Below, piece after piece: positions 8,090 to 18,874 of a stretch of 39,129 bases of DNA. The notes beneath the pieces are model-generated. The model was not told the origin of the DNA, searched no databases, and saw only the letters and a program-made list of their open reading frames with translations. Positions within the stretch are counted from its first letter, which is position 1; each line of letters starts with the position of its first letter. Source of the DNA: a bacterium (lineage in GTDB: Bacteria; Armatimonadota; Zipacnadia; Zipacnadales; Zipacnadaceae); assembly GCA_030602615.1 (NCBI GenBank), contig JAUVZM010000019.1, positions 1-39,129 of the forward strand, in the 5' to 3' direction. The position numbers and the translations under genes were made by a program.

Positions 8090-9162
8090 CTTGGGCCGAG
8101 ACACGTGAGAGACCCGCTGTTCGCCTGATTGACCAGACTCTCTTGCCCGGCGAGCTGGTTCTGAAGGATTGCTATGTGCTTGAGGAGGTCTGCGAGGCTA
8201 TCAAATCGCTGCGCGTGCGCGGAGCACCGGCCATCGGCTGCAGTGCGGCATTGGGTGTAGCCCTGGCTGTGTACACCAGCGGGGCCGACTCCACCGGTGA
8301 GCTTGTTTCAGTCGTGGAGGAGGCCGCCGAGCAACTGGCGGCGACGCGACCGACCGCAGTGAACCTCTTCTGGGCCCTGGAACGGATGCGCCGGGTTGCC
8401 CAGGGATCCACTGATCTGCCCCCGGAGGCCTTTCGCCACGTGTTACTAGAAGAAGCTCAGGAGATTGTTGGCGATGATCTGGACCACTGCCGGCGCATAG
8501 GCGAGTATGGTGCCGAGCTTATTCCGCAAGGGGCTAACATTCTTACTCACTGCAACGCCGGGGCGCTGGCTACTGCCGGATATGGGACGGCTCTGGGAGT
8601 GATTCGCGCCGCTCACCAGCAGGGCAAAGATATACATGTCTGGGCCGACGAGACGCGGCCGCTGCTGCAGGGCGCCCGGCTCACCGCCTGGGAACTGGAG
8701 CAGGAGGGCATTGCTTGCACAATCATCTGCGACAGCGTTGCCGCTTCGCTTATGCAGGCGGGTAAGGTGGATTGTGTGGTGGTGGGGGCCGACCGCATCG
8801 CCGCCAATGGTGATGTTGCCAATAAGATTGGTACTTACGCAGTGGCGATAGCAGCCGACCGACACGATGTCCCCTTCTACGTCGCCGCGCCACTGTCAAC
8901 CCTGGATTTGTCGCTGGCGAGCGGTCAGGAAATTCCCATCGAGCAGCGCAGTCCCGAGGAGGTCTGCTACCTGGCCGGTCGGGTGGCCGCGCCGATATGT
9001 CCGGAGGGTGCTGATGTCTACAACCCGGCTTTTGATGTCACGCCCGCTGAGCTGATTGCGGCGATAATCACCGAAGTGGGGATCGCCCGTCAGCCACTGG
9101 CTGCCTCACTGGCGGGGCTTTCCTCCGGAGACTCCTCGACTGGCTCTTGTTCCTCTTCCTGA
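8059..9162 (+). CDS. mtnA: S-methyl-5-thioribose-1-phosphate isomerase
   Basis: Converts methylthioribose-1-phosphate to methylthioribulose-1-phosphate in methionine salvage; eIF2B-like fold. Diagnostic motifs are RVRGAPAIG, ILTHCNAGALATAGYGTALG (catalytic Cys), ADETRPLLQGARLTAWEL and VVGADRIAANGDVANKIGT (catalytic Asp). The start is a TTG at 8059 with AAAGGGG about 11 bases upstream; no ATG or GTG fits between it and the conserved VRLIDQTLLPGEL. It overlaps the preceding gene by 31 bases. The last roughly 24 codons overlap the end of the convergent S55 gene by 73 bases, giving a serine-rich tail beyond the usual family end. No other methionine-salvage gene is in the window. Confidence 0.93.
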   Translation: MDVSNAPGTVTWAETRERPAVRLIDQTLLPGELVLKDCYVLEEVCEAIKSLRVRGAPAIGCSAALGVALAVYTSGADSTGELVSVVEEAAEQLAATRPTAVNLFWALERMRRVAQGSTDLPPEAFRHVLLEEAQEIVGDDLDHCRRIGEYGAELIPQGANILTHCNAGALATAGYGTALGVIRAAHQQGKDIHVWADETRPLLQGARLTAWELEQEGIACTIICDSVAASLMQAGKVDCVVVGADRIAANGDVANKIGTYAVAIAADRHDVPFYVAAPLSTLDLSLASGQEIPIEQRSPEEVCYLAGRVAAPICPEGADVYNPAFDVTPAELIAAIITEVGIARQPLAASLAGLSSGDSSTGSCSSS

Positions 9163-12100
9163 GGGGCCTCCGGCTTTTCTTCATCTTCGGCAATATCCTC
9201 TTCAGAGATCCAGGGCAGGTGCACCTTCTGATCCGTGGTGTTGCCGGCCTCATCCCACACCCGCACTACGATCTGCTCTGCATCCTCGGGGAGCTGTCCA
9301 GTAGCTATCTCGAAGCTTTCGATCAGTTCGTCGTAGGCGCCATCGGCGGGCTGAGCTGCCCACCACTCATCACTATCCTCGACTTGCCAGGAGACTGAGG
9401 CGATGGCAGTCTGCTCGTCGCTGGCAATGCCTTCCAGGCTTACCTTAGCCTCTTCCTGCTCGCCGCGCGGCGGCTGCATTCTCAGCATTGGCGGTTCGTT
9501 GTCAATGCGTACACCGGTGACTACCTGACTTACTTGCCACTGGCTGTCCGGATTGCTGGGCCGGTCGGTTATGGTTATTTTGATCTCGTAATTGCCGGGT
9601 TCCTGTTCGGTCGTGTCCAGTTCGTATGAGTCTTCTTGGATAGGGCCGGCGATCTGTTCCCATTCTCCGTCGGTCGGCCGCAGATACACGGTGGCGGCAA
9701 TATTGTCATCGTCCGGGTCATCCGCTGACCATTCGATCTTGGCTTTGTTGCGCAGCGCTGCGCCCTGGGTGGGAGCCTTTACCTTCAGCTTGGGCTTCTG
9801 GTTGGCAGGCAGATAGCTGATTCTTATGGCTTTCAAACGAGTATTGGCATTCTCGGTATCCGCCGGAACCTGCACGCGGTATTGCAGGTAACGCCCGGCC
9901 GGCACATCAATTTGCATGCCGCTGTGATACGGACGCGACCAGCTACTCCAACTGCCCTCGTCGCGGTCGCGAGTGTTGCCCGAGCGGCAGTGGACCACGA
10001 CCTCACTGGCCTGCTGGCCTTGCGCCCACCATCGGACGCGCTGCCACTGGCTCAGACGCTCTGCATCCAGTACATCCGAGATATACCGGCCAGTCTCAGC
10101 GCCAGACAAGTTGCATGAAAGCAGCCGGCCGGGGTTGTTGCCGCCGGCGAAGAGCAGACCTTTGCCTCCGGCGGCCAGACACAGGATCGCTCCCGCGTCT
10201 TTGTTGCGATAGACCGTAGTACAGTGTTCATCGTCGGTGAACGTGAGGATGATTCCCTTCGAGGCCGCCCCGCCGTAGACGCGTCCGTCGGCCGCCAGTA
10301 GCGCCAATACAGGGTGTTCGCTATTCTGGTAGATAGCCTGCGGGATGCCGGCCGAATCAATGCGATACACGTAGCCCTTGCTACGCTCACCAAATGTCGC
10401 CGCATACAGCGCGCCATTGCAAGAGACCAGATCTGCTATATCATTGTCACCGGCGTCGAGCACTCCCAGAAGTTGTCGCTGCTGGCCTATCTGGTAGACA
10501 GCGCCGGGCGCCGAGGTGCCTGCGTAGACGACTCCGTCGCGTACAGCGAGGCACAGGACATGGGATTGGGGCACATCAGCGTATAGCGAGTATTTGCCCT
10601 GTTCGTCAACCAGGTAGATGAGTCCGTGCGGGCCGGTGGCGACCAGCAGGCCACCGTTAGGCGCTGGCAGGATGTCCCATATGTATTCGGCGGGAAGCTC
10701 ACAGAATACCTCGCCCTGGTCCTGCTGGGTGATGAGAAAGATCTTCCCCTCCCCGCAGGTCCCTGCGTACAACTGGCCGTCGCTGCCGACCAGAAGCGCG
10801 CTGACCGGCGCTTCCCCGGCTTCAAAGTAAGTTATGAGTTTGCCCTCCTGCCAGGCATATATGTCCCCGTCACTCGCCTCTCCAGCAAAGACAGTGCCTG
10901 ACGAGTCCACAGCCAGGCTCCACCAGGTATTGCCCGGTGCTGTCACCTCCACTTGCCACGGGGGCGTGGTAATCAGCAGGCCGTCGTCGCGCACACCCAG
11001 GCCGGCGAGAGTGCCATCTTCGTAGTCTTCAGGTGAATCGTGCAGCCACGAGCTACTGCCCCGAATGACCTTGCCATCGGCCTCCTTCTCTTCTTCCTTT
11101 GCTTCAGTCTTCTTTTCTTCTTCGGTCTCACCGGGAGCTTCCTGCTTGGCTTTTTCCAGTAGTTCCTTGATCTCCTCGGGCATCGGGGGCATTTCGGGCT
11201 GGAGCTGTTTGACTGCTGGCGGTAGTGGGGGCTGATCCACCTGCTTGCTGGCAAAAGCAGAGCGGGCCCACCACATTGCCGACGGCACCCGGCCGCTTGC
11301 AATGGCTCCAACCCATTCTGAGCTTTCCCCGGTGCTGGGCATCGCCGGGCCACCTGGGCCAGGGGGGGCCCCCCTCGACGGTATTCTTAGTGTGGCCCGC
11401 TCGCCCTGGCGATCTTCCGTCGGTAGCATCATCACGGCCAGGCCGTCCAGCACATACGGGGTATCAATGACCTCGGACAGTTCCGAGTAGCCTGTGGCGA
11501 TGTCCGTACGCGTAGCTGATGAGATGACAGACACTGCTGTCTTCGGCAGATTGTTGAGCAGTATATCGCCGATTCGCAAGCCCACCGTGGGCATGGCAGC
11601 CAGCGTTAGCAGTTGCGTGTTTTGCTCCCTCTGCTGGTACTCGTTGATGACTGTTTCCAGCTTATTAAACTCCGGGGTCAACAGCCGGAGGGTCGAGCGC
11701 AGCATCCAGCCGTAGCCGCCGCTGCTGACCGCCAGGCGCAGGTAGCCTTTGGGCAGCTCCAGAGGCATATGCAGCCGAACCACTTTCTCAGTTGCTTCTT
11801 CACCGATCGGGCGGATTAGCACATGCAAAGTGACGTCTTCTCCAGCGCGAGCGACGGCCTCTTCGGCCCAGACTCGCTCAATAGTGGCAGTGCGGTTCTC
11901 GCGGCTGATCGTGGCGGACAGTTTTACGGCGCTGACCCGCTGGGGGGTGAAGCGATTCTTCTCCAGCAGCGTGACCGTCGACAGCATATCCCATAGGATG
12001 TCGAAAGACGGTTCCCCTTGGTATGCGAAGGTATCGGTTCGGCTGACCGTCGAACCTTTTTCGCCCTCGACGGTAAAGGAGACTTCCACGGTGCCTTCGT

Positions 12101-13238
12101 CATTAGCATCATAAGCGGCATAGATCGCGTCAAAGCCGCACATAAGAATAAGCATTTGCCGCAGGGCCGGGTCGTTGCAGATCTGGACCCTATAAGTGTG
12201 CGAGAGGTCATTGTCCAGGTCATGAATCTCAAAGGTAGCGGGAATCGTCTCGGGAACCGAGCCAAGCTGGCCTGCTATTGACCACGCGGTGTCCTGGGCC
12301 AGGGTACCCACCGGGGTGATGCCGGAGGCCATCCGAAATGAGAAGTCCATCTTTGCTATCACCTGGTGAACCCAGGCAGTGGTCAGCGGAAGTTGAGTCT
12401 GCCCCAGCTTCATCAGAGGATGCCCAAAGGCCAGGAGGCGATCGCCCTCGCGGTAGGTCACTGTTCCTACCGAATTGATATCGAAGTCCCCGGAGACAAA
12501 CTGAACTCCCATGGCGGCGCCGGGTTGTAGCTCAGTGTCTATCTCGCGGCGCATATTCCCCGGGCCGGCAATGGCCTCGATGCCGTAGCTACCGAAGAAG
12601 TCAGCCAGGTGCTGAACAGTCTTGTCGCCGAAGCCTGCGCAGAATATCGGCGTTGTCACCGGGCGCAGTGCCAGAGTGTTGTCATCCACGAAAGCCCTGT
12701 CAAACTCACTACTGACCACTCGCACGCCCGTGACATTGCGGCCAGCGAGTTTTACTGGGCTGCGGCGGCGGTGCGCGACTGCTGACGACTCTTCCTCGAT
12801 ATGGCTGTCCTGCTTCTCAAAGGCGCGTAGCATGCTCTCAATAGGTGTCACCCCGGCAATAGGCTGCCTCTCAAAGGCCCAGGTAAAGGCCATGGCGCCT
12901 ATCAGCCGTCCGCCTATGTACACTGGAGTGCCGCTCATCCCCGAGAAAATGCCCATCTTCTGTTCTACCACAGGCCCGTCCAGTATTCTGATCAAGATGA
13001 CGTCCGAGCCTTCCTGGAACTTGGGTAGTACACCTAGAACCTCGATGTTGAACTCTTCGATGTCAACACCGGAAAAGACAGTGCGAGCAGTGCCCTTCAT
13101 CCCGGCGCGCACTGCACTAGTCGGCATCATTCTGGCGATGTCAAACCCGGAAGAATCCGACCAGCTTGGCACTACTGACAGCAGAGCCACTACTGACACG
13201 GCCAGGCTAGTTGATATTATTGAGGAACGTATGGCCAT
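9090..13238 (-). CDS. Exported peptidase-S55 (SpoIVB-type) protein fused to beta-propeller and Ig-like domains
   Basis: 1382 residues. A signal peptide (about 1-27) is followed by an S55-type domain with GMSGTPVYIGG (candidate nucleophile Ser near 102) and, later, LLAFGHPLM (candidate His near 273). About 400-600 is beta-rich. A low-complexity linker follows (about 660-720, Pro-rich then Glu/Lys-rich). Residues about 770-1060 contain repeated strands with YAG/FAG and GxVY motifs typical of a beta-propeller, then one or two Ig/FnIII-like modules and an acidic tail. GAAAGGA precedes the ATG. In sporulation SpoIVB is a signalling protease; no sporulation context exists here, so the role is unknown, probably at the cell envelope. 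The gene overlaps mtnA by 73 bases tail-to-tail and diverges from the GntR gene. Confidence 0.88.
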   Translation of the reverse strand: MAIRSSIISTSLAVSVVALLSVVPSWSDSSGFDIARMMPTSAVRAGMKGTARTVFSGVDIEEFNIEVLGVLPKFQEGSDVILIRILDGPVVEQKMGIFSGMSGTPVYIGGRLIGAMAFTWAFERQPIAGVTPIESMLRAFEKQDSHIEEESSAVAHRRRSPVKLAGRNVTGVRVVSSEFDRAFVDDNTLALRPVTTPIFCAGFGDKTVQHLADFFGSYGIEAIAGPGNMRREIDTELQPGAAMGVQFVSGDFDINSVGTVTYREGDRLLAFGHPLMKLGQTQLPLTTAWVHQVIAKMDFSFRMASGITPVGTLAQDTAWSIAGQLGSVPETIPATFEIHDLDNDLSHTYRVQICNDPALRQMLILMCGFDAIYAAYDANDEGTVEVSFTVEGEKGSTVSRTDTFAYQGEPSFDILWDMLSTVTLLEKNRFTPQRVSAVKLSATISRENRTATIERVWAEEAVARAGEDVTLHVLIRPIGEEATEKVVRLHMPLELPKGYLRLAVSSGGYGWMLRSTLRLLTPEFNKLETVINEYQQREQNTQLLTLAAMPTVGLRIGDILLNNLPKTAVSVISSATRTDIATGYSELSEVIDTPYVLDGLAVMMLPTEDRQGERATLRIPSRGAPPGPGGPAMPSTGESSEWVGAIASGRVPSAMWWARSAFASKQVDQPPLPPAVKQLQPEMPPMPEEIKELLEKAKQEAPGETEEEKKTEAKEEEKEADGKVIRGSSSWLHDSPEDYEDGTLAGLGVRDDGLLITTPPWQVEVTAPGNTWWSLAVDSSGTVFAGEASDGDIYAWQEGKLITYFEAGEAPVSALLVGSDGQLYAGTCGEGKIFLITQQDQGEVFCELPAEYIWDILPAPNGGLLVATGPHGLIYLVDEQGKYSLYADVPQSHVLCLAVRDGVVYAGTSAPGAVYQIGQQRQLLGVLDAGDNDIADLVSCNGALYAATFGERSKGYVYRIDSAGIPQAIYQNSEHPVLALLAADGRVYGGAASKGIILTFTDDEHCTTVYRNKDAGAILCLAAGGKGLLFAGGNNPGRLLSCNLSGAETGRYISDVLDAERLSQWQRVRWWAQGQQASEVVVHCRSGNTRDRDEGSWSSWSRPYHSGMQIDVPAGRYLQYRVQVPADTENANTRLKAIRISYLPANQKPKLKVKAPTQGAALRNKAKIEWSADDPDDDNIAATVYLRPTDGEWEQIAGPIQEDSYELDTTEQEPGNYEIKITITDRPSNPDSQWQVSQVVTGVRIDNEPPMLRMQPPRGEQEEAKVSLEGIASDEQTAIASVSWQVEDSDEWWAAQPADGAYDELIESFEIATGQLPEDAEQIVVRVWDEAGNTTDQKVHLPWISEEDIAEDEEKPEAPQEEEQEPVEESPEESPASEAASG

Positions 13239-13452: not shown

Positions 13453-14220
13453 ATGCCTCCTCTGGAACTGGATCGACTTTCACAGCACAATGGCGGGCCG
13501 CTGTATGTGCAGATAATGCGCATCCTCGAAGAGCAGATCCGTCTGGCTCATTGGAAGCCGGGCGACAAACTGCCCACTCAGCAGCAGCTTGCTGAGCACT
13601 TCGAGGTGAGTCTTGCCCCCGTTAAGCAGGCCCTGCGCGAGCTGGAAAAGCGCGGTATTGTCTCTCCTCGGCAGGGGCGGGGGACCTATGTCACTGACAC
13701 CACGCCACTGTTTCAGGAGCTTATCGAAAAAGACCGCATTCCGTCTTTCACGCGAGAGATGGCCGAAAGGGGACGCCAGGCCCACTCGATAGTATTGACT
13801 TTGGAGCGGATGTCCCCCGATGATATGCCCAAAGCCAGCGAGCAATTGCAGCTTGCCGATGATGACAGCTTGGTATTTATTGAGCGCGTGCGTCTGGCCA
13901 ACGGTAAGCCCCTGGCGCTGCAGAGCAGCTACTTACCTAATAGTCGGCTTGGGCAGATAATTGAGCGGGGCCTGGAGGGCACCGAAGCTCTTTCTGAGGT
14001 GCTCCGAGATGACTTCGGGACTGCAATTACAGCCTCTCATCAGACCATCACCGCCACCGCCGCCACACCTCGTGATGCCGAGCATCTGAATATTCCCGTT
14101 GATTCACCGTTGCTGCTGGTCGAACGGACTTCGTACCTGGACAGTGGCAATCCCATCGAGTTTGTCATTGATCGTCGCCTGCCCGAATTCAATTTTGCTG
14201 TGTGGCTGCGCTGCAGCTAG
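13453..14220 (+). CDS. GntR-family (HutC/UTRA) transcriptional regulator
   Basis: Ligand-responsive DNA-binding regulator of 255 residues. The N-terminal winged helix runs about 15-80 (PLYVQIMRILEEQI, LPTQQQLAEHFEVSLAPVKQ, GIVSPRQGRGTYV). The C-terminal UTRA effector domain runs about 95-250 (FIERVRLANGKPLALQSSYL, LLLVERTSYL, IEFVIDRRLPEF), placing it in the HutC subfamily. UTRA domains commonly sense sugar phosphates or small carboxylates; the ligand cannot be told here. The ATG at 13453 lies downstream of its own promoter. It stands 133 bases before yfhO and diverges from the S55 gene, so either or both could be targets. Confidence 0.92.
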   Translation: MPPLELDRLSQHNGGPLYVQIMRILEEQIRLAHWKPGDKLPTQQQLAEHFEVSLAPVKQALRELEKRGIVSPRQGRGTYVTDTTPLFQELIEKDRIPSFTREMAERGRQAHSIVLTLERMSPDDMPKASEQLQLADDDSLVFIERVRLANGKPLALQSSYLPNSRLGQIIERGLEGTEALSEVLRDDFGTAITASHQTITATAATPRDAEHLNIPVDSPLLLVERTSYLDSGNPIEFVIDRRLPEFNFAVWLRCS

Positions 14221-14353: not shown

Positions 14354-16822
14354 ATGCGCCGCGGTGGTCTACTTACAATTCTGGTGCTGGTTGGTTTCGG
14401 TCTGCTGCTGTTCTGGCGGGTGTTACTAGCTGGGCAGGTCTTTTTCTGGCATGATGTCACCGTCGCGTATATGCCGCTGCGCAAGTTGGCCCAGGAGGCT
14501 ATCCGCTACGGCCACCTGCCTGTGTGGACGATGAAGCTGGGCTGCGGCTTTCCCCTGTTAGCTGAGGGGCAGTGCGCCACTTTCTACCCTCTGCACATTA
14601 TTGCCTACCTCGGCTTGCCCTACTACTATACCTACTCGTTGCTGGTCTACCTGCATTGTCTGTTGGCTGCTGTTTTCGCTGCGCTGCTGGGGCGGAAGCT
14701 GAACCTGGGTTGGTCGGCGGCGGCTTTTTGCGGGCTGGTTTACGGCTTCTCCGGCTATTTCGTCTCCAAAGTGTTGTTCATCACTGTGCTGGAAAGCGGC
14801 GCCTGGCTGCCGTTGATTCTATACTTCATAGTTGCCGGGCTGGACAGCGCCAACTATCGCTACTTCCTGGGCGCTGCCCTGGCCCTGGCGCTGTCAATTC
14901 TGGGCGGCCACCCCCAGATTGTATTCTACGAACTGCTCGCGGTGGTGATTCTGCTTATCGCTTACCTGCTAAGGAGTCGCGCCGGGATGGTGCGGAAACG
15001 CCTCGTCCGGCTGTCCGTGGCTGCCGTGGTGATAGTTGGACTTGGCGTTGGGCTGGCGGCTGTGCAGTTGGTGCCCACCGCTGGCCTGGCCCGGTTTGCC
15101 CAGCGCCACGCGCAGCGAACGCCCGAAGACTTGCGCGCGCTGGGGATGAGTGCTCGCAATCTGGCCTATTACATCCATCCTACCATCCTGGGTTCCTATG
15201 CTGAGAACGACTACTTCGGTCACGATCACTACTACGAGGTGTGCGGCTATGCGGGTGGCCTCACCGTGCTCCTGGCCATACTGTTCCTATTCGGCCGCCA
15301 GTCTACCTGCAGGTACCGCTGGTATTTTGTATTCCTGATCTTCTTTGGTCTCTTTATGGCTTTGGCCAAATACAATCCTCTATACGAAATATTGCCAGCC
15401 GTACCCGGCTTCAACTATTTCCGGGCGCCAGGCCGATACTTACTGTTGACCACGCTGGGACTGGCGGTGTTGGGCGGCGCCGGGTTGCAGTCACTGGCCG
15501 GCGCCCACGGTACCCAGCAGGCCAGAAGGCTCGTTGCGCTGTGTCTGGCGGCGCTTGTGGTCGGAGGCCTGGTTATGCTGGGCTTGCGTCTCGGCCGTGC
15601 TCAGGCCAAGCAAGGGCTAACCGGGCTGATTCGGCGAGATGCGGCCAGCGCGGATATATCGCAGGCCCAAGTAGAGCAAAAGGCCACCGAAAAGTACCGC
15701 TTTTTTGTCGGGCGGCTGAGCCTGAGCAATTCTGACTGGCGGGCGCTGCTCGTCGGCACTGCTGCAGTTGCCATCGCGGCGGGGCTGCTCGCTATAGGTG
15801 CTGCAGATTATCGCGTGGTCGCTACGGTGTGCCTTGTGGTCCTCGCCTGGCAACTGCTGGCCTTTGGGATGCCGCACAACGGCACCGCCCCGCCCAGCTA
15901 CTTTACCGACCCGCCGCAGACGGCTAAGATCATTCACGCTGATCCCAATCCCGGCCGCCAGTACACCGACCCGCGGCTATACTCGATAGATTTCACACCG
16001 CCGGATTACCAGGGATGGATAAGCGGGGACCTGGCTCCGTATCTGGCAGATCGCGAAATATTGCACGCCAATACTGCGGTGTTATATGATGTGGCGGCCG
16101 TCGAGGGCTACCGTTACGCGCTGCTGCCTCGGCGCCAGTACGAGGTCTTTGAGAAATACATTCCCGATGGTCTTGCCGGCAAGCCCGGTGGCGCCGCCCG
16201 GCCGCTTCAATTGTTGCGCATGCTCGGCGTCGAGTATCTCGTTGGAGTGCCTGGTTTGGAATCAGGTGAGGTCGAGCCAGTTCATATCGAACCAATGTTC
16301 ACGATGTACCGGATCAAGGAGCCGATGCCGCTGGCCTGGGTGAGCGATGGGGTCAAGTACTGCGAGACCCCAGAAGAGGCGAAGAAAGTCATTCTGTCGC
16401 CTACTTTTCGTCCGGAAGTGGAGCCTGCCGTCGAGGGTCTGCAGCAACCGCTTTCCTCGGTCTACTCCGGCTACGGCACAAACCGAGTTGTAGCCCACGT
16501 CGAAGAGCGCGGCATTTCTGCGAGGGTCACTATTTCCGGAGTTAGTCCTCGTATGCCTTCGCTTTTGCTGGTGGTGTCAATGGCCTATAATCCTAACCTC
16601 GTCGCTCGTGTGGATGGAAAACCTGCTCCCATCTACCGCGCCAACTACGTGCTCTGTGGCGTGCCTGTCCCACCGGGCGAGCACACCATCACCGTTCGCT
16701 ATGAGTCTAGGCCCCTGCGCTGGGGGCTGGCTATTTCACTGATTAGCGTACTAGTTGTGGTGGTTGTGCTGATCACAACGACTAGATACGAGCAAAGGCA
16801 GAATGCAACCAACGATGCCTAA
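14354..16822 (+). CDS. YfhO-family polytopic membrane protein (GT-C-like glycosyltransferase)
   Basis: 822 residues with about a dozen hydrophobic segments, the first at about 5-23, then an outside loop holding the acidic WHDVTVAYMPL motif (Asp near 34), where GT-C enzymes carry a catalytic Asp. The N-terminal region (LGCGFPLLAEGQCATFYPL, GFSGYFVSKV) matches the YfhO family pattern. A C-terminal soluble beta-rich domain (about 560-780) is followed by a last TM helix. In Bacillus and Listeria, YfhO-type proteins transfer a sugar from a lipid carrier to an envelope polymer, working with a CsbB-like GT2 and a flippase. Here GT2 and 4-TM genes follow directly, with a 20-base overlap to GT2. GAGGG lies upstream of the ATG. 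The acceptor is unknown. Confidence 0.85.
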   Translation: MRRGGLLTILVLVGFGLLLFWRVLLAGQVFFWHDVTVAYMPLRKLAQEAIRYGHLPVWTMKLGCGFPLLAEGQCATFYPLHIIAYLGLPYYYTYSLLVYLHCLLAAVFAALLGRKLNLGWSAAAFCGLVYGFSGYFVSKVLFITVLESGAWLPLILYFIVAGLDSANYRYFLGAALALALSILGGHPQIVFYELLAVVILLIAYLLRSRAGMVRKRLVRLSVAAVVIVGLGVGLAAVQLVPTAGLARFAQRHAQRTPEDLRALGMSARNLAYYIHPTILGSYAENDYFGHDHYYEVCGYAGGLTVLLAILFLFGRQSTCRYRWYFVFLIFFGLFMALAKYNPLYEILPAVPGFNYFRAPGRYLLLTTLGLAVLGGAGLQSLAGAHGTQQARRLVALCLAALVVGGLVMLGLRLGRAQAKQGLTGLIRRDAASADISQAQVEQKATEKYRFFVGRLSLSNSDWRALLVGTAAVAIAAGLLAIGAADYRVVATVCLVVLAWQLLAFGMPHNGTAPPSYFTDPPQTAKIIHADPNPGRQYTDPRLYSIDFTPPDYQGWISGDLAPYLADREILHANTAVLYDVAAVEGYRYALLPRRQYEVFEKYIPDGLAGKPGGAARPLQLLRMLGVEYLVGVPGLESGEVEPVHIEPMFTMYRIKEPMPLAWVSDGVKYCETPEEAKKVILSPTFRPEVEPAVEGLQQPLSSVYSGYGTNRVVAHVEERGISARVTISGVSPRMPSLLLVVSMAYNPNLVARVDGKPAPIYRANYVLCGVPVPPGEHTITVRYESRPLRWGLAISLISVLVVVVVLITTTRYEQRQNATNDA

Positions 16823-17528
16823 GATATCCATTGTCTACCCGATGTACAACGAAGAAGATAATATCCATCGTGCGGTACAGATGGCTCAGCGAGAGTTGGG
16901 TTTAGCTGCCGACGGCGATTATCAGATCGTTATCGTCAATGATGCCAGTACCGATCGTACCGGTGAGATGGCCCAGCAGTTAGCTGCCTGCGATCCCCGA
17001 ATTAAGGTTGTTCACCACCTGATCAACCGCAAGCTGGGCGGTAGCCTACGTACCGGTCTTGCTAACAGTAGCGGAGATATCGTCATCTACATGGACGCTG
17101 ACATTCCTTGCGATCTGGCTCACGTCCATGAGGCTCTGCCCGAGTTTGAACAGGCCGATGTAGTTGTCGGCTACCGGACAAATCGTCATGAGGGCGTGCT
17201 GCGCTGGCTGTACACGCGCACGTACAATTTCCTGGTGCGAATATTGCTGAAGGTGGCTGTTGGGGATGTGAACTGTCCTTTCAAACTGTTCAAGCGGCAA
17301 GTAGTCGAGGCGATGGATCTGCGCTCGGAGGGCTCGTTCATTGATGCTGAGATGCTGGCCGAGGCTCGGCGACTGGGCTTTACCATTGAGCAGATTCCGG
17401 TCGAGTTCATCCCCCGCCAGGCGGGAGAGTCCACTCTGGCCCGCCCTGATGTCATAGTCAAGATAATACGAGAGTTCGTTCAATATCTATTCCGTCGCAA
17501 AGATACCGCCAAGGAGACTAAGAGATGA
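16803..17528 (+). CDS. GT2 glycosyltransferase, polyprenyl-phosphate sugar synthase type
   Basis: 241-residue GT-A enzyme of the dolichyl-phosphate mannose synthase/CsbB group, expected to load a sugar onto a polyprenyl phosphate on the cytoplasmic side. Visible motifs are the start ISIVYPMYNEEDN, VNDASTDRTGE (about 46-55), the metal-binding DAD at 98-100, and the later NCPFKLFKRQVVE and FIDAEMLAEARRLG segments. Unlike CsbB or ArnC it ends without C-terminal TM helices, closing with a basic tail. AAAGG lies just before ATG 16803; ATG 16815 is an alternative. It overlaps yfhO by 20 bases, and its stop overlaps the next start as ATGA, so the three are tightly coupled. Confidence 0.92.
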   Translation: MQPTMPKISIVYPMYNEEDNIHRAVQMAQRELGLAADGDYQIVIVNDASTDRTGEMAQQLAACDPRIKVVHHLINRKLGGSLRTGLANSSGDIVIYMDADIPCDLAHVHEALPEFEQADVVVGYRTNRHEGVLRWLYTRTYNFLVRILLKVAVGDVNCPFKLFKRQVVEAMDLRSEGSFIDAEMLAEARRLGFTIEQIPVEFIPRQAGESTLARPDVIVKIIREFVQYLFRRKDTAKETKR

Positions 17529-18001
17529 TACGTATTCTGCTATTGTTAGGCTGCATTATCCTCGCCCCAACCGGCAACTTGCTGCTGAAGTGGGGGGTAA
17601 ACGAGTGTGACAGTATCGCGGAGACGAACCTGGGCGTGGTGCAATACTACTTGCATGTGCTGTCCAAGCCGCAGGTGCTGGTCGGGGCGGTTGTCTACGT
17701 CGTATCAGCTCTGCTGTGGCTGGCCGTTTTGGGAATGATGGACATCACTGCTGCTTATCCGATATTTGTCAGTGGGGCCTTTCTGATCGTCACAGTGGCG
17801 GCCGTGTTGCTCTTCCAGGAGCACGTCAACTGGGTGCGCATATTGGGGATATTGGTCGTGGTGCTGGGCATCTTTCTGGTCTCGCAGTCGGCCCGCTGGT
17901 ATGAGCCCCGCCCGGCGGCCGCATCAATAGGTTTATCCGCCAAAATGCAGGATAGCAACGACCGTCACAGTGTACAGCAGAACATTGATCAGCAGGGGTG
18001 A
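17525..18001 (+). CDS. Four-TM EamA/SMR-like transporter, probable lipid-linked sugar flippase subunit
   Basis: 158 residues with four hydrophobic helices (about 3-20, 50-72, 78-98, 104-120) in the half-EamA or small-multidrug-resistance layout: LLLKWGVN after TM1, DITAAYPIFVSGAFL before TM3, VNWVRILGILVVVLGIFLV as TM4. Related ArnE/ArnF proteins flip undecaprenyl-phosphate-aminoarabinose. Position directly behind a GT2 gene (ATGA overlap) and yfhO supports a flippase role, which is inference. The roughly 35-residue hydrophilic tail is longer than usual, and its last 23 codons overlap the end of the convergent UbiA gene by 69 bases. Confidence 0.8.
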   Translation: MIRILLLLGCIILAPTGNLLLKWGVNECDSIAETNLGVVQYYLHVLSKPQVLVGAVVYVVSALLWLAVLGMMDITAAYPIFVSGAFLIVTVAAVLLFQEHVNWVRILGILVVVLGIFLVSQSARWYEPRPAAASIGLSAKMQDSNDRHSVQQNIDQQG

Positions 18002-18844
18002 GTCGGTCAGCAGCACCCGGTCAGGGGCTGCGCCCTGGTTCTTTTGGTGGACGAGATATAGATAGCGGAATATGCCATAGAGTACAAAGGGTATGGTGTA
18101 CATCAGCCGGTAGGAACCGACTTCCTGCACGGTTCTTTCGTGAACAGTATACACAGCGTATGACATCACCGTTGACGCCGTGACCACCGCAATCATCTGA
18201 TCCAACAGATAAGAGCTGTATTCCCCCAGAATGGGCCGATGCGCGACAGCACCTTCCTCCAGGCCAACCAGCTCCTGACGACGCTTCGACAGTACCAAGA
18301 ATAGCGCCAGCAGGATGGTACAGATCAACAGCCACGGGGAAATAACCACTGGGATTGCCGTCGCCCCGGCCGCCGCTCGCAGCACGTATCCTGCCGCCAC
18401 CGCCAGTACGTCAATTATGACTATTTGTTTGAAGAGGAAAGTATAAACCAGCGTGAGTATAAGGTAGCCGCAGGCAACATGACCGGTCGGAATGTTAATC
18501 AGGTAGCACCCGACTACGCCACCGGGAGCAAGTATGGCGGCGGCTGCCGTTGCCACTGGTACCGGCAACTGCCCCGAGGCAATCGGGCGGTGGCGCTTGG
18601 TGGGATGTTTCTGATCCTCTTCGCGGTCTGCTATGTCGTTTATCAGATAGATGCTGCCTGAAATTAGACAAAATAGCGCAAAGGCCAACGCCACCGTCAC
18701 TACCGCACCCACATCGTCAAAACGTCGGGCAAAGATGAGCGCAGCGAACACCAGCAGGTTCTTAGTCCACTGTTTGGGTCGCATCCCCCGCAGTAGCGCC
18801 ACCAGGGGGAAGCGGGCTGGGCGCCGAACTTCTTCGTATTGCAC
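17933..18844 (-). CDS. UbiA-family prenyltransferase, decaprenyl-phosphate phosphoribosyltransferase-like
   Basis: Integral membrane enzyme likely to transfer 5-phosphoribose from PRPP to a polyprenyl phosphate. The DPPR-synthase pattern is clear: MRPKQWTKNLLVFAAL near the start, then SIYLINDIADREEDQKHP with KRHRPIASG (first Asp-rich motif), LSKRRQELVGL later, and about eight or nine TM helices. I chose GTG 18842-18844 because AAGGAGG lies four bases upstream; a TTG at 18874 directly abutting the lysS stop has no ribosome site. In mycobacteria this step starts arabinofuranose-donor synthesis with DprE1/DprE2, which are not seen here. It is the last gene of a long leftward unit, after lysS, and converges with the 4-TM gene. 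Confidence 0.85.
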   Translation of the reverse strand: MQYEEVRRPARFPLVALLRGMRPKQWTKNLLVFAALIFARRFDDVGAVVTVALAFALFCLISGSIYLINDIADREEDQKHPTKRHRPIASGQLPVPVATAAAAILAPGGVVGCYLINIPTGHVACGYLILTLVYTFLFKQIVIIDVLAVAAGYVLRAAAGATAIPVVISPWLLICTILLALFLVLSKRRQELVGLEEGAVAHRPILGEYSSYLLDQMIAVVTASTVMSYAVYTVHERTVQEVGSYRLMYTIPFVLYGIFRYLYLVHQKNQGAAPDRVLLTDSPLLINVLLYTVTVVAILHFGG

Positions 18845-18874
18845 GATGCCTCCTTGGCTTTCAGGTTTGCTCAA

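Follow-up and report, generated by a model that had tools for sequence, protein, structure and literature searches.

A three-gene set from the phylum Armatimonadota probably encodes a three-component transmembrane glycosylation system in which a flippase of the ArnE/F type occupies the place usually taken by GtrA. The set lies at positions 14354-18001 of contig JAUVZM010000019.1 (GCA_030602615.1), from 'Candidatus Zipacnadia', a class that comes from marine sediments (PMC10290634); the whole stretch analyzed, 39,129 nt, is referred to here as the window. As judged from their sequences, the products are a YfhO-family protein, a GT2-family protein and a four-transmembrane (4-TM) protein of the SMR family:

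14354..16822, + strand: YfhO-family membrane protein, 822 amino acids (aa), predicted GT-C glycosyltransferase (PF09586)
16803..17528, + strand: GT2 (GT-A fold) polyprenyl-phosphate sugar synthase-like protein, 241 aa (PF00535; ArnC/DPMS/GtrB profile matches)
17525..18001, + strand: 4-TM SMR protein of the ArnE/ArnF lipid subtype, predicted polyprenyl-phosphate-sugar flippase, 158 aa (ArnF profile)

The open reading frame coordinates agree with the overlaps described in the original prediction, which was made from the DNA alone: 20 bases between yfhO and the GT2 gene, and 4 bases (ATGA) between the GT2 and SMR genes. An alternative GT2 start at 16815 (MPKIS..., the start used by the orthologue at locus L006) would reduce the first overlap to 8 bases. 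That prediction read the set as a glycosylation module of GT2 enzyme, SMR flippase and YfhO, a reading supported by the gene identities, the subtype of the SMR protein and the conserved linkage of the three genes.

The GT2 and YfhO proteins

The GT2 protein exceeds the PF00535 cut-off (97.7 bits versus 23.3; 9e-28). The best PDB matches of its profile are ArnC (3.2e-22), DPMS (2.1e-21) and GtrB (9.8e-19), the hhalign probability against Escherichia coli ArnC is 99.3, and its DxD metal-binding motif, D98-x-D100, is invariant in relatives. Hydropathy gives no membrane helix anywhere in the 241 aa, so the C-terminal helices of the ArnC/GtrB type are missing, as had been noticed from the DNA. This is not the departure it was taken for, since most GT2 relatives in the phylum likewise have no predicted membrane helix. 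A fairly close relative of the window GT2 forms half of a 498-aa frame in genome G044 (L151:1417-2913), where GT2 and GtrA are fused as in DPMS-type proteins.

YfhO also scores above its curated family cut-off (PF09586, 46.5 bits versus 28.5). In an alignment of 22 diverse sequences, the others being 22-82% identical to the window protein, Asp34, Pro41, Trp58, Gly65 and Tyr78-Pro79 are invariant (22/22). Asp34 is the conserved acidic residue of the first outer loop and is a candidate catalytic residue. A beta-rich extracytoplasmic domain occupies the C-terminal part, at about residues 628-783.

The 4-TM protein belongs to the lipid subtype of SMR proteins

The 4-TM protein falls short of every Pfam cut-off (TMEM234, 28.4 versus 30.1; SMR, 21.3 versus 23.7; EamA, 18.6 versus 28.2). 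Its best NCBIfam model is ArnF (1.6e-12), which is matched by 12/12 family members of the SMR alignment; the curated equivalog cut-offs are not reached, with 48 of 99 bits for ArnF and 24.3 of 92 for ArnE. On profile evidence, then, the protein is of the ArnE/F subtype and is not an ArnE/F orthologue. Consistent with this, hhalign probabilities are 97.6 for ArnE (102 columns) and 92.3 for ArnF, compared with 95.1 over only 73 columns for EmrE and 0.2 for GtrA. The protein has four helices, and Foldseek aligns it with EmrE/Gdx at a probability of ~1 and a TM score of 0.7 on the target, with E >0.05. Membership in the GtrA family was rejected (no match to Pfam PF04138, besides the hhalign value), so the original assignment to an ArnE/F-like EamA/SMR family different from GtrA/GtcA has held up.

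Drug SMRs need a central glutamate. We aligned 46 relatives with E. coli EmrE, Gdx, ArnE and ArnF, and this residue (EmrE Glu14) is found in 0/46, the window protein having Ala and the relatives Gly, Ala, Thr, Leu or Val. Also gone, in the window protein and in all or nearly all of the 46, are the binding-site residue Trp63 and the GXG fulcrum of the third transmembrane segment. EmrE position 18 is almost constantly Asn or Gln in the relatives, and Gln in ArnE and ArnF. Replacement of the central glutamate is a feature of lipid-subtype SMRs (SMR review, PMC9574504). With these residues missing and an ArnF-type profile, the protein does not fall among drug-efflux SMRs, a placement that would have told against a flippase.

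Linkage of the three genes is conserved

The order YfhO-GT2-SMR, convergent with a UbiA gene, is kept in genera g1, g2 and g3, three of the four genera of the family, the genes overlapping or being separated by short gaps. It persists down to ~43% YfhO identity and for these reasons is not attributable to chance. The co-occurrence implied by the original prediction therefore stands for these three genera; it fails in part in genus g4, where the locus has no GT2 gene, the least conserved of the three.

A wider survey covered 61 genomes, 50 of which hold a total of 66 strong SMR relatives. Among the matches listed, 48 of the 66 lie within 3 kb of a YfhO gene, in 38 genomes and always on the same strand (48/48), where ~0.3 would be expected by chance. 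None of 38 weak EamA-type matches lies within that distance of YfhO. Five to six further SMR relatives also have a YfhO gene, which is either split off by a contig end or not among the matches listed, and others adjoin GT2, UbiA or DUF6541 genes; these include relatives next to GT2 and other GT-C genes in G037 and G041, and next to GT2 in G050 and G060.

SMR and GtrA alternate beside related YfhO genes

Most YfhO-linked SMR relatives sit in a conserved locus, def-fmt-TPR-RACo-corrinoid protein-SMR-YfhO, which often continues with a B12 radical SAM protein, a DUF6541 protein, a GT2, a second YfhO and a PMT_2 protein. This locus, with variations, is order-wide (L132-L143, L187, L199) and places a corrinoid protein, together with its activator, next to a glycan cluster, a pairing without an obvious reason. 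The genome from which the window comes carries it as well, on contig C5. There (L075:2987-10195), a 580-aa membrane protein that matches no Pfam family and an M48-like peptidase come after a second SMR-YfhO pair. The pair stands a few genes away from lptC and lptA, a position that may link it to modification of lipopolysaccharide (LPS).

GtrA scores over its cut-off in 0/15 genomes of the family, 1/41 of the order and 12/20 outside the order, and SMR relatives are present in 40/41 and 10/20 of the latter two sets. The negative association across all 61 genomes has p = 5.5e-5, uncorrected for relatedness. At the def-fmt-TPR locus itself, the gene before YfhO is SMR in most relatives and GtrA in G051, G046 and G060. 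The order in G051 is def-fmt-TPR-GtrA-YfhO on one strand, that in G060 and G046 is TPR-GtrA-YfhO, and G049 has def-fmt plus a divergent GtrA-YfhO. The proteins of G049 and G051 fall among SMR-adjacent YfhO proteins in the YfhO tree (fork 98/95); those of G046 and G060 branch weakly (81/73) with the second YfhO. It follows from the gene orders of G051 and G049, taken with this tree, that related YfhO genes at one locus have either SMR or GtrA. This alternation, a comparative argument, is the strongest that we have, and it suggests that the SMR protein does GtrA's job.

The window module appears to have an origin of its own. Its SMR groups with the GT2-linked SMRs of G037 and G041 (97/94 and 97/90), away from the YfhO-linked ones at the def-fmt locus, and its YfhO groups with sister-family YfhO genes that have no adjacent SMR or GT2. 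Both trees place it apart from the pair on contig C5 and give no support to the idea that the module is a copy of that pair. The simplest reading of the trees is that the SMR-YfhO pairing likely arose twice, although support in the SMR tree is modest and the protein short. A broader proposal, toward which we lean slightly, is that YfhO-type transferases can be served interchangeably by ArnE/F-type SMRs or GtrA proteins as flippases, although these two families of small membrane proteins are unrelated. The swap would be visible at one conserved Armatimonadota locus. The SMR-YfhO pairing would have at least two origins, one at def-fmt-TPR and one in the window module, where a GT2-linked SMR would have joined a solitary YfhO, and it would provide YfhO-based decoration of envelope glycans in LPS-bearing bacteria.

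Proposed pathway

The host genome has LpxC, LptC and LptA, and the window has the 3-deoxy-D-manno-octulosonic acid (Kdo) genes KdsD, KdsA and KdsB, plus MlaD and MlaE. Because of these genes the host is very likely a diderm with an LPS-bearing outer membrane, as the original prediction supposed. In such an envelope, the GT2 enzyme would work on the cytoplasmic face and charge polyprenyl phosphate with the sugar of a nucleotide sugar, as its homology to ArnC, DPMS and GtrB implies. The SMR protein, presumably an antiparallel homodimer, would then bring the polyprenyl-phosphate-sugar to the periplasmic leaflet; having no central glutamate, it is probably not a proton antiporter. YfhO, as a GT-C-like enzyme, would use Asp34 as a base for the transfer, its C-terminal beta domain holding the acceptor that receives the sugar. 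As the host makes lipid A, there is no need to invoke teichoic acid, and this acceptor may be a glycan of the envelope, perhaps LPS.

Genes flanking the module

Two genes flank the module:

13453..14220, + strand: GntR/UTRA transcription regulator (PF07702, 1.4e-31; PF00392, 2.4e-19; both models passed)
17933..18874, - strand: UbiA-family decaprenyl-phosphate phosphoribosyltransferase (PPPRS; NF008977), whose membership in the module is uncertain

The regulator ahead of the module had also been recognized from the DNA. Its reading frame was called from TTG 13279, its likely start is ATG 13453, and 133 bases separate it from yfhO. A GntR/UTRA gene is also found 5' of yfhO in several genomes of genus g1 and, with a Nudix gene between, in one of genus g4; none was seen within 8 kb in the g3 locus L008. 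Further upstream, 9090-13238 on the minus strand encodes a 1382-aa protein whose N-terminal domain resembles the SpoIVB S55 peptidase and which also has a beta-propeller-like region.

The UbiA gene, which the original prediction did not mention, is convergent with the SMR gene, and their 3' ends overlap by 69 bases. An SMR C-terminal tail of ~33 residues (17900-18001), found only in some g1 genomes, is antisense to the 3' end of UbiA. In genus g4, a Wzt/TagH-like ABC ATPase gene is inserted between UbiA and SMR (L213:7124-7924, G009). The UbiA protein exceeds the curated NF008977 cut-off (287.6 bits versus 234). UbiA occurs in 59/61 genomes and adjoins lysS in 29/30 relatives, with or without the module; being so common and so tied to lysS, it may stand beside SMR by accident.

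Alternative explanations

Several observations weigh against the three-component pathway. The genus g4 locus has no GT2 (G009 keeps YfhO-SMR, and G012 only GntR and YfhO), and there the donor would therefore have to come from a gene elsewhere. The compared genomes are related, so that the linkage counts are not independent events, and outside the order alone the exclusion of SMR and GtrA is not significant (p = 0.17). A sequence search of the PDB with YfhO gave no meaningful match and no relative of solved structure. The YfhO model, built from 9 sequence rows, has a mean predicted local distance difference test score of 54.7, too weak to locate Asp34 in a cavity; with this low-confidence model, the best Foldseek matches, at E values of 0.05 or worse and none significant, are OST STT3 and AftD, which are GT-C enzymes and thus agree with the predicted fold. 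Finally, a PPPRS gene lies directly beside SMR.

The last point raises a pentofuranose variant, which we regard as unlikely. UbiA would make polyprenyl-phospho-ribose-5-phosphate from phosphoribosyl pyrophosphate, a putative phosphatase would trim it, SMR would flip polyprenyl-phosphate-ribofuranose and YfhO would transfer ribofuranose, the GT2 serving another step or a second donor. Three-component pentofuranose systems that begin from such a UbiA and use a MATE flippase are established (PMC11127046). Besides the curated score of the UbiA protein, it counts for this variant that UbiA adjoins SMR in g1-g3 and G014 and is next but one in G009, also where GT2 is absent, and that SMR (G046, G060) or GtrA (G048) comes after UbiA, on its strand, in other families. 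In G060 this takes the form of a tight same-strand GT2-UbiA-SMR set with no transferase adjoining (L184:6715-8806). Yet UbiA keeps its place after lysS whether or not the module is there, and it runs convergent to the module instead of in its direction. Moreover, the window SMR is closest to GT2-linked SMRs and does not cluster with the UbiA-linked ones of G046 and G060. For these reasons we no longer count UbiA as a firm fourth part of the module and keep it as a rival. An arabinose donor made through DprE1 was rejected, there being no PF04030 match in the 15 family genomes; the lack of this oxidase domain limits only the arabinose branch.

The other alternatives keep some of the parts and change their roles. 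That GT2 and SMR feed another GT-C enzyme, with YfhO separate, is improbable: relatives of the window GT2 and SMR lineage often adjoin PMT-type GT-C genes and the sister-family YfhO stands alone, but the overlapping reading frames and the order kept in three genera speak for one unit. We hold it equally improbable that the three proteins cooperate to modify a protein, be it a pilin, an S-layer protein or a lipoprotein, in the manner of streptococcal Pgf glycosylation with its GT2 PgfS and YfhO-family PgfM1/PgfM2. The best NCBIfam match of the GT2 is indeed PgfS (5.8e-22), and the only ones of YfhO are PgfM1/PgfM2, all scoring far below cut-off; no candidate protein acceptor lies in or beside the cluster, and this alternative differs from the proposed pathway in the acceptor only. 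Least credible, and close to refuted, is a drug, guanidinium or polyamine exporter set next to glycosyltransferase genes by accident. It has in its favor the SMR fold and weak matches to EmrE/EbrB/MdtJ models, against which stand the loss of Glu14, Trp63 and GXG across the relatives, the uniform ArnF matches and the recurrent same-strand linkage to YfhO.

Comparison with known systems

The proposed SMR-based pathway is composed like the CsbB-GtcA-YfhO systems of Bacillus, Staphylococcus and Listeria (PMC7389260, PMC8035078), which likewise combine a GT2 synthase, a small 4-TM flippase and YfhO. There, however, the flippase is GtrA/GtcA, whereas here it is an ArnE/F-type SMR with no detectable GtrA relation; the acceptor there is a teichoic acid of a monoderm, whereas this host has lipid A; and the GT2 here, unlike theirs, has no membrane helices. 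The E. coli ArnC-ArnE/ArnF-ArnT pathway, which adds aminoarabinose to lipid A, shares the ArnC-like GT2 and the ArnE/F-like SMR. Its transferase is ArnT, to which YfhO is unrelated by sequence (hhalign 0.1), and for this reason the module is not an Arn system; moreover, two SMR genes serve there and one here, and the immediate cluster has no ArnA/B/D gene. GtrA-GtrB-Gtr(type) O-antigen glucosylation follows the same three-step logic and its GtrB is matched by the GT2 profile here, but its flippase and transferase families differ.

In the PPPRS-MATE-GT136 pentofuranose systems (PMC11127046) and mycobacterial Rv3806c-Rv3789-Emb, the likeness is a PPPRS (UbiA) beside a small flippase and a GT-C-like gene; here MATE and GT136 genes are absent, the UbiA gene runs convergently and stays with lysS, and a GT2 synthase is present. 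From streptococcal Pgf the neighborhood differs in holding an SMR gene. As of PMC11127046, none of the small flippases in these pathways had been directly demonstrated to flip its substrate, and in an open-access library we found no paper pairing YfhO with an ArnE/F-type SMR.

A locus at which two unrelated small membrane families alternate beside related transferases is independent evidence, drawn from comparison, that they share one function. YfhO systems are known from Gram-positive bacteria, in which they glycosylate teichoic acids; the module would extend them to LPS-bearing diderms, and an SMR gene beside YfhO may serve as a genome rule for finding uncharacterized envelope glycosylation.

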